Source: Anaerolineae bacterium
Lineage (GTDB): Bacteria > Chloroflexota > Anaerolineae > Promineifilales > Promineifilaceae
Assembly (NCBI GenBank): GCA_015486215.1
Contig: WFSA01000107.1
Span: 1 to 60,746, forward strand
Direction: 5' to 3'
Length of the DNA stretch: 60,746 nucleotides
Shown: in pieces, positions 240 through 37,838 of the stretch
Layout: each line of letters opens with the position of its first letter
Numbering within the stretch: position 1 is the first letter of the stretch
Notes under the pieces: model-generated
Told to the model about the DNA's origin: nothing
Database searches by the model: none
Seen by the model: the letters and a program-made list of their open reading frames with translations, nothing else
Position numbers and translations under genes: made by a program

Positions 240-246
240 AAGGAGG
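240..246 (+). promoter_or_regulatory. Displaced Shine-Dalgarno of the lipoprotein gene
   Basis: AAGGAGG lies here, but the start codon it should serve is at 384. If the B element at 254-376 and one copy of its target duplication are removed, the sequence reads AAGGAGG, six bases, ATG, which is ideal spacing. The ribosome binding site was therefore split from its gene by the insertion. Confidence 0.8.
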
Positions 247-253
247 AAAAATA

Positions 254-376
254 GTATCTTCTCAATTTTTTGGGGTGATTACAACAAATTAAGAAAGGAA
301 CAGATTGTGCCAGTCGAGTAAATTTGTTCCTTTCCCAATCTATTGTAATCATGTTCCCAATTTTTTGAAAAGATAC
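254..376 (+). mobile_element. Family B miniature inverted-repeat element
   Basis: The 123-bp element starts GTATCTTCTCA and ends in GAAAAGATAC, an imperfect complement. Its inner arms around ATTACAAC and GTAATCAT can pair, so a transcript would fold into one long hairpin. It is flanked by a perfect 8-bp duplication, GAAAAATA, at 246-253 and 377-384. It has no coding capacity. Relatives are at 17804, 56093 and 56322. Confidence 0.9.
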
Positions 377-383
377 GAAAAAT

Positions 384-1376
384 ATGATAAAAAATATGAC
401 GAAAATAGGAGTTATCATTGTAATACTCAGCCTGTTCTTGGCAGGATGCGGCTCTGATGAGGATAGCGTGCCGCTTGACGATGGCGCGGCGCGAATCGCT
501 GCTGTGGATATGGGAGCGAATATGGCTCAAGCTCTGCCGCCGACAGCGATCCCGTATCATTTTATGCAGCTCTCCGTCCCCGATGGGGTGGTGGATGAGT
601 TGACAACGGCCGTTGGCAATGATCCCGTCATCATCTACAAAAAAAGTGGCGGCGTGATGGGGGGAACGCGGGAGTGGAATGTTTACGCTGACGGCCGTAT
701 CGAACAGAATGGCGAAATTGTCCAAACCGTCCATCCTGCCCTCATCGCCAATCTTCTGATCGCGGCTGATGACGCGCGTTTCTACGATATTGAAAAGGAG
801 TATATGGATGTTGATCCATGCTGCGATCTGTACATCTATGAGTTGACGATAACGGATGGACAGCAGTCGCATACCGTCACCAAACTGGAAGGTGCGCCGT
901 ATGCACTTGCGTATGGGGCGATGGAAACGGCCGTTGAAAATTTACTCCATCAAACGGAGATTCCCGTTGAAGAGAAGTATGTCACAGTGGCTGATGCGAT
1001 GATGGAGACCTTTATAACGGCCGTTGGCAATGATCCCGTCATCACCTACCAAAAAAGCGGCGGCATTACGGGCATGATGCAGGAGTGGAATGTTTACGCT
1101 GACGGCCGTATCACACAAAACGGTGAAGAGATCGGCGCAGTCGCCCCAGTTCTCATCGTCAATCTTGCCATAGCGGCTGAGGATGCCGGCTTTTATGTAA
1201 CAGAGGAGGAGTATCTTGATACCGATCTTTGCTGCGACCTTATTTCTTATGAATTGACAGTGACGAATGGGAGCAAAACGCATACGATTGAGACGATAGA
1301 TGATGCGCCGCGCCCATTTGCGGTTGATGTGGTGATGACGGCCGTTGAAGGGTTGATTCGTATGTTGGGTGAATAA
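384..1376 (+). CDS. Lipoprotein with two tandem homologous domains
   Basis: A 330-residue protein with a signal peptide ending in a lipobox (LAGC, about residues 19-22), so it is probably anchored on the outer face of the membrane. The mature part is a tandem duplication: residues about 70-195 and 205-325 both contain the series TAVGNDPVI, then a KSGG turn, then EWNVYADGRI with QNGE, and later a CCDL motif. I do not recognise the family. The ATG at 384 lies in the target duplication of a B element and has no nearby Shine-Dalgarno. An in-frame ATG at 396 has none either, so present translation is uncertain even though the frame is intact. Confidence 0.8.
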   Translation: MIKNMTKIGVIIVILSLFLAGCGSDEDSVPLDDGAARIAAVDMGANMAQALPPTAIPYHFMQLSVPDGVVDELTTAVGNDPVIIYKKSGGVMGGTREWNVYADGRIEQNGEIVQTVHPALIANLLIAADDARFYDIEKEYMDVDPCCDLYIYELTITDGQQSHTVTKLEGAPYALAYGAMETAVENLLHQTEIPVEEKYVTVADAMMETFITAVGNDPVITYQKSGGITGMMQEWNVYADGRITQNGEEIGAVAPVLIVNLAIAAEDAGFYVTEEEYLDTDLCCDLISYELTVTNGSKTHTIETIDDAPRPFAVDVVMTAVEGLIRMLGE

Positions 1377-35783: not shown

Positions 35784-37721
35784 TTAATGCAGTTTTACGA
35801 CTGCTTTTTTTACTTTCAATGCCCGTCCTAATTCGGCAACGGCCGTTTGCATTGCCCCTTCCACCGTTTGCGCCCCGCGAATCTTTTGGTTAATCTCGTT
35901 GATCAATCGCTCCCGCTCGGCGCGCTTTTGCGTGGTTTCAAACTGTCGGGCATTTTGTACTGCTATGCTGATTGCACCAGATAAAGTGCTTAACAGCCGC
36001 TGATCTTCATCATCATACAGATGATCTACGCGATAACTATTGACTCCGATGACACCAATTACTTTATCGGCAATTAACATAGGCACACCGATAAAGGTGT
36101 CTGGAATGCGCCGCAAACCTTCTATTAAACCACCGCGTTCGATGAACTCTGCTTTTGTGCTATTGAAGATAAACGGCCGTTTTGTCCGAATAACCTCGGC
36201 CGTAAAACCGCCTTCCTCGTCAGCCAATCGAGAAGGCACATGCTGTATACCAATATCTTGATTATAAAAATAAGGGAAATCAATCATATTAGAAGAGGCG
36301 TTGTACAGGGCAAAAAAGACACTTTTAGCAGAAAACGCTTCTTGCAAATGCGGCCCCACACTCTCAAATAATGTTGATAACTCCAGATGGGTAGAAACCA
36401 TTTTGCTGATCTCATTGAGCAGAGTCAACTCTTCACTGCGCTCTTCTGTTTGACGTAGCGCATCTTCTGTGGCGGTGAGCAAGCGGGCATTTTCTAGAGA
36501 AACGGCCGTTTGCTCCACAACATCCATCGCCAATCGCAACGCCTCATCATCCCATTTTTTATTGCCAAATATATCTACCAACTTTACCGTGCCAATTATC
36601 TCCCCGCGCACAGAGATGGGAACAGCTAAGACATCCTCATCCGCATGTGCCTGCCAATCATCAAATAACCAAGCCGGCCTATTTTTATCATCAGCCTCCG
36701 CAGCCGTATCCATCGACAAAAAAGCGTCTGCACTCTGCTCATAAACATACGCCGTCTGTATCTCATCAGAACCTGTCCACGCATCCCGAATGTAACGACG
36801 ATGCGTGCTTCTCTCCTCTTGCAAACTTTCTTCCACTTGCGTAAACAGACGCGCACTATCAATCGCTGATGATAATTGATCCGCTAATACTTCCAAAATA
36901 GAGAGTTCCTGCTCTGAAAATCTATTCAATTCCTTGCTTTGAAGGGTGATTGCGCCCAGAACATGATCGTATGAACGGAGAGGGAACATAATTTCCGATT
37001 GTGTGTCTGGTAAAAGCTCGTTCTCTTGCGGGGTACGGCTGTCTGTATGCTCAACAAGGATAAGCGGCTCACCATTCCGAATACATTTTCCGATTGATGA
37101 CTCATCCTCTAAAGAGATTCTATATCCACGATGAATCAATTCCTGCCCAGCTATGCCCGTGCCAGCATGAAAAACAGCCCACTGTTTATATTTATCTATT
37201 AAGAATACGCCCACATAATAAAAATCAAACTGGCTGCGAATCTGTTCCACAGATACGGTCAGCAACTCCCATAAATCTAATGTAGAAGCGGCCGTTTGCC
37301 CAATTTTAGATACAGCTTGCACCTGCGCTGCATATTTTGCCACTGTCTGAACATAACCTTTCATCACCTCAGCATGATAATCATCAGCTATATCAAGAAC
37401 AGTCATCTGTTGCTCTGGCAATACCGTTGCCAGACAAAAATGGCGTACCGTCCGCCCCATCTGCATAACCGACTCTTCGCTCAAGCCGATTTCATAATGC
37501 GCTTGGCCGCGTTGCTGGGGCAGTGTTGGATCCATCTGCTCTACATAAGCAAAAAAAGTATCTGCCTCAGATTGATGTATCTGTTCAAGCTGAGATGGTT
37601 GCAGCTTATCCTTATTTGTCATCCTCGTATCTAACAACGCCTGTTTATATAACGAAGCCAGCTCTGATTTATGATTACTCAATGCGTTTGAAATAGATTG
37701 ATAAGCGGTCATTTTATTCAT
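35784..37721 (-). CDS. GAF-repeat sensor with helical N-terminal domain
   Basis: The start is taken at ATG 37721 (MNKMTAYQ) or 37712, because the longer frame to 37775 is read out of a mobile element. The N-terminal helical domain (about 5-125) resembles an RsbR-type or globin-like sensor in outline, not firmly identified. GAF (about 135-300), a REGW-type module (305-415) and GAF (425-585) follow, then the shared truncated GAF tail (RERLINEINQKIRGAQTVEG onward). No catalytic output is found. ATG 37721 lies in the target duplication of the A element at 37727, so the leader of this gene is the element itself. Confidence 0.85.
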   Translation of the reverse strand: MNKMTAYQSISNALSNHKSELASLYKQALLDTRMTNKDKLQPSQLEQIHQSEADTFFAYVEQMDPTLPQQRGQAHYEIGLSEESVMQMGRTVRHFCLATVLPEQQMTVLDIADDYHAEVMKGYVQTVAKYAAQVQAVSKIGQTAASTLDLWELLTVSVEQIRSQFDFYYVGVFLIDKYKQWAVFHAGTGIAGQELIHRGYRISLEDESSIGKCIRNGEPLILVEHTDSRTPQENELLPDTQSEIMFPLRSYDHVLGAITLQSKELNRFSEQELSILEVLADQLSSAIDSARLFTQVEESLQEERSTHRRYIRDAWTGSDEIQTAYVYEQSADAFLSMDTAAEADDKNRPAWLFDDWQAHADEDVLAVPISVRGEIIGTVKLVDIFGNKKWDDEALRLAMDVVEQTAVSLENARLLTATEDALRQTEERSEELTLLNEISKMVSTHLELSTLFESVGPHLQEAFSAKSVFFALYNASSNMIDFPYFYNQDIGIQHVPSRLADEEGGFTAEVIRTKRPFIFNSTKAEFIERGGLIEGLRRIPDTFIGVPMLIADKVIGVIGVNSYRVDHLYDDEDQRLLSTLSGAISIAVQNARQFETTQKRAERERLINEINQKIRGAQTVEGAMQTAVAELGRALKVKKAVVKLH

Positions 37722-37726
37722 TAGGC

Positions 37727-37838
37727 GTATCTTCTCAATAAATCGTGGATAAGGCTTGACAAATTTCATCAGCACTTTATTTTACACGAGTACCATTAGG
37801 AAAATTTGTCAAGTCTCCCCAGAATACTGAGAAGATAC
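37727..37838 (+). mobile_element. Family A element with intact target duplication
   Basis: 112 bp, ends GTATCTTCTCA and TGAGAAGATAC. The perfect 8-bp duplication CATTAGGC lies at 37719-37726 and 37839-37846. It separates two sensor genes and abuts the start codon of the downstream one. The rest of the gap (37847-37988) has only a decayed repeat. Confidence 0.93.

Follow-up and report, generated by a model that had tools for sequence, protein, structure and literature searches.

Probable insertion of a MITE between a Shine-Dalgarno sequence and the start codon of a predicted lipoprotein gene in an Anaerolineae bacterium

In the window (the whole stretch of DNA that was analysed, 60,746 nt of contig WFSA01000107.1 of an Anaerolineae bacterium) a perfect-looking Shine-Dalgarno (SD) sequence is separated by a near-palindromic element from the start codon of a predicted lipoprotein gene (Table 1), which raises the question how the two came apart and whether, and in what way, the gene is still translated. 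The first-pass annotation of this DNA had described an AAGGAGG followed by an element with a duplication on both sides, the second copy of which supplies the A of the ATG, at a present distance of 137 bp and in front of an intact gene frame; direct reading of the sequence bore out each of these points. The earlier arrangement that it proposed (AAGGAGG, six bases, ATG) was reproduced by computation, as deletion of the element and one repeat reduces the SD-to-ATG spacing from 137 to 6 nt.

Table 1. Features of the leader and of the downstream gene (positions in the window).
Feature	Position	Strand	Basis or remark
SD, AAGGAGG	240-246	+	direct reading; probably formerly 6 nt before ATG 384
Target-site duplication, left copy, GAAAAATA, 8 bp	246-253	+	direct reading
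MITE, family B, 123 bp, near-palindromic, terminal repeats GTATCTTCTCA / TGAAAAGATAC	254-376	+	genome alignment, terminal-repeat pattern
Target-site duplication, right copy, GAAAAATA	377-384	+	final A is base 1 of the ATG
ATG start codon	384-386	+	direct reading
Intact ORF, predicted lipoprotein (LAGC lipobox), duplicated domain, 330 aa	384-1376	+	ORF reading, repeat search

The probability that a MITE inserted between the SD and the ATG and thereby moved them apart is, judged from the sequence, about 0.95. This reading follows from the two copies of GAAAAATA, which are identical at 8/8 bases (an exact match between random 8-mers has a chance of roughly 1e-5 at intergenic composition), from the existence of a large family with duplications of equal length, and from the paralogous sequence without insert that joined-flank queries retrieved for 75 other elements, the 254-376 copy not being among them. 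The empty pre-insertion state of this particular leader is what we infer from these observations. As to the suggestion to look for the empty site in a sister strain, the set of genomes searched contained no same-genus genome, and hence no sister in which the site is empty; the relatives in it are only 26-42% identical, and a scan of the genome contigs yielded none. Nor did an upstream repeat emerge as the origin of the SD: the local repeats overlap 185-235 and end before 240.

The element has the properties of a MITE, in that it is short, has terminal inverted repeats and a target-site duplication of constant length, and occurs in many dispersed copies. In its own genome (4.13 Mb, 341 contigs) 40 copies align to it, the nearest of which, on C30, is 98% identical with two differing positions, the remaining ones being 82-87% identical. 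The terminal-repeat pattern has 958 exact matches genome-wide (476 + 482; reversed control 0); as every element has two ends, there are probably some 480 elements or more. Within the 1.75 Mb of the genome that was examined element by element, an element being accepted when at least 7/8 bases of its duplication agreed, exact 8/8 duplications flank 201 of the 244 accepted elements, and the most frequent lengths are 112 and 123 bp. The duplications are A/T-rich at positions 2-7, their middle six bases, and landing in AAAAAT therefore fits the habit of the family. When 58 other genomes were searched, six proved to contain related sequence. Like known prokaryotic MITEs, such as MITEAba12 of Acinetobacter and the Correia elements of Neisseria, the members of the family are about 110-125 bp long, end in inverted repeats, duplicate their target, insert at AT-rich places and are present in many copies, but they differ from MITEAba12 in the length of the duplication (8 instead of 9 bp). 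A parent transposase with matching terminal repeats was not found in the 341-contig assembly with the profiles PF01609 (whose two matches lack the repeats at their flanks), PF00872 and PF03050 (zero matches each). A few long element pairs that share ends and duplications (482-1241 bp, in the 1.75 Mb) were seen, one of them consisting of two A copies, and none was shown to carry a transposase. At C27:2652-3570 (locus L134) an ORF that, judged by eye, resembles a response-regulator receiver domain lies between two A elements of 112 bp, and GATAATTG is present at each of the four junctions.

A member of this abundant family has very probably landed, with an 8-bp target duplication, in the AT-rich bases that separated AAGGAGG from the lipoprotein gene, and has put the SD outside working distance. 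Four readings of what followed were weighed, and we favour weak initiation without an SD at 384 or 396 (the second in-frame ATG), or decay of the gene, over bridging by a hairpin. For continued SD-independent translation, the likeliest of the four, we see roughly even odds from the sequence: the gene may now be expressed at a lower level from AUG 384, AUG 396 or both, which lie in A+T-rich DNA past the hairpin. The region from -20 to +12 around the start is 84% A+T (mean 61%), and the predicted opening energy amounts to 5.3 kcal/mol for ATG 396 and 9.4 kcal/mol for ATG 384, the median of SD-less starts being 8.7 kcal/mol. Such initiation is plausible because about 45% of the called genes lack an SD: no match of at least 4 nt precedes 568 of 1259 called starts (87% for random positions), as determined with our own dicodon caller, which awards an SD bonus and called 1296 genes in the 1.75 Mb. 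This outcome, absent from the first-pass annotation, fits that proportion. The frame is intact despite the two differences between the element and its nearest copy, which is weak evidence for function, as we estimate that a dead gene of 1 kb could also stay open at about 1.6% divergence. A start elsewhere with a separate binding site, use of which had been named as a finding that would overturn the original proposal, did not turn up on reading the sequence: an AGGAG is present at 407-411, and the in-frame codons that follow nearby are only ATC, ATT and GTA. The gene itself contains an internal duplication (571-829 / 982-1240, 72% DNA identity) and gives sub-threshold matches to Emfourin/DUF6438 profiles; several of its distant lipobox homologues have an SD-like sequence near the start (e.g. 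AAGGAG in L067, L072 and L075, and GGAGG in L071).

That useful expression was lost upon insertion, leaving an early pseudogene with its frame still intact, is possible but rather doubtful. The predicted duplex energy with the anti-SD tail is -10.8 kcal/mol for the joined-flank sequence and -0.2 kcal/mol for the present start, and the 7-nt SD responsible for this pairing is now 137 nt away; against a loss stand the intact ORF and the frequency of SD-less starts in this genome. Hand-counted, an SD in the joined-flank sequence is rarer at starts at most 11 nt from an element (2/10) than at 12-40 nt (23/32; Fisher p 0.008), a contrast that we do not rely on because the caller prefers starts with an SD. 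A simulation over the observed distances gave 2.9 expected SD-losing cases (95% range 0-6) where 1 was observed, and a single case is no significant deficit.

This one case is ATG 384, the only start within 40 nt of an element in the 1.75 Mb that has an SD of at least 5 nt entirely on the far side. A search of the whole genome with fixed-length patterns (112 and 123 bp) retrieved the present site on C107, with its 123-bp element, and a pair of sites on C169 with elements of 112 bp, and no second SD-element-ATG case was confirmed in it: at C169:19755-19886 the 8-bp repeat would put GGAG on the start side, and C169:4194-4319 is a further candidate for the layout. The insertion at 254-376 is the only clear SD-splitting case among about 500 elements in the genome. 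Other elements are situated 0-11 nt ahead of starts that had no SD before insertion and have none after it, for instance the family A element at 37727-37838 of the window, 5 nt ahead of the called start of gene 35784-37721, with a duplication (GCCTAATG) that includes an ATG. At C12:7986, C5:15855 and C22:21190 elements lie in or just past an SD, and the 8-bp duplication re-made the SD beside the start.

Bridging was the second of the two outcomes, next to lost expression, offered by the first-pass annotation. It supposes that the MITE folds in the mRNA and joins the SD to the AUG, a split ribosome-binding site like those of phage T4 genes 38 and 25, in which a hairpin is also situated between SD and AUG; we regard it as unlikely, and a functional site of this kind, with the MITE as part of the leader and its hairpin coupling the displaced SD to AUG 384, as quite improbable. 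In favour of the proposal is the predicted hairpin: the fold of 230-400 has a predicted energy of -46.6 kcal/mol (z -6.4) and leaves both the SD (97-98% unpaired) and bases 377-383 (at least 96%) accessible. Against it is the spacing, since the eight bases added by the duplication lengthen the linker, so that the predicted hairpin leaves 7 + 7 = 14 nt rather than 6. This exceeds both T4 cases, where short structures, backed by mutation or reporter tests, reduce a spacing of 22 nt to 5 nt in one gene and of 27 nt to 11 nt in the other, distances at which both genes function (PMC3014915), whereas here a 123-nt transposon would do so in a predicted fold. Compensatory change in the stem was likewise no higher than in shuffles among 28 distinct copies (pairs altered on both sides 1, shuffled mean 3.4; covariation score 0.062 vs 0.061), and there is therefore no sign of selection for an RNA hairpin, at the level of the element family, as these copies come from different loci. 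On the favoured reading the hairpin would be the inherited palindrome of a transposon rather than a structure selected for holding SD and AUG together. Moreover, a long duplex may be a substrate for RNase III, whose cleavage of Correia elements has been reported (PMC10969869). A new promoter in the element or at its junction, giving a transcript with a short leader or none, is very improbable even though outward promoters have been reported for another MITE (MITEAba12), as the sole plus-strand match in 1-600, a weak one that spans the left junction (TTGATA at 231, TATCTT ending at 260), scores 9/12 and its transcript would retain most of the element.

In a literature search that, beyond the cited papers, covered titles and the openings of abstracts, no MITE between an SD and a start codon was recognised, and the terms Shine, ribosom and start codon are all absent from the text of a review on prokaryotic MITEs. 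The leader at 240-386 amounts to a natural before/after experiment on the importance of a strong SD in a genome with so many SD-less genes. Should it prove to be still functional, then either initiation here tolerates the lack of an SD or a mobile element has become a component of a ribosome-binding site.

Another repeated sequence in this genome is the palindrome AACGGCCGTT, many copies of which lie in the window: it occurs 1330 times in the 1.75 Mb, 1.5 being expected from base composition, with 1103 of the occurrences within gene calls, and it is similar to the highly iterated palindrome of cyanobacteria.
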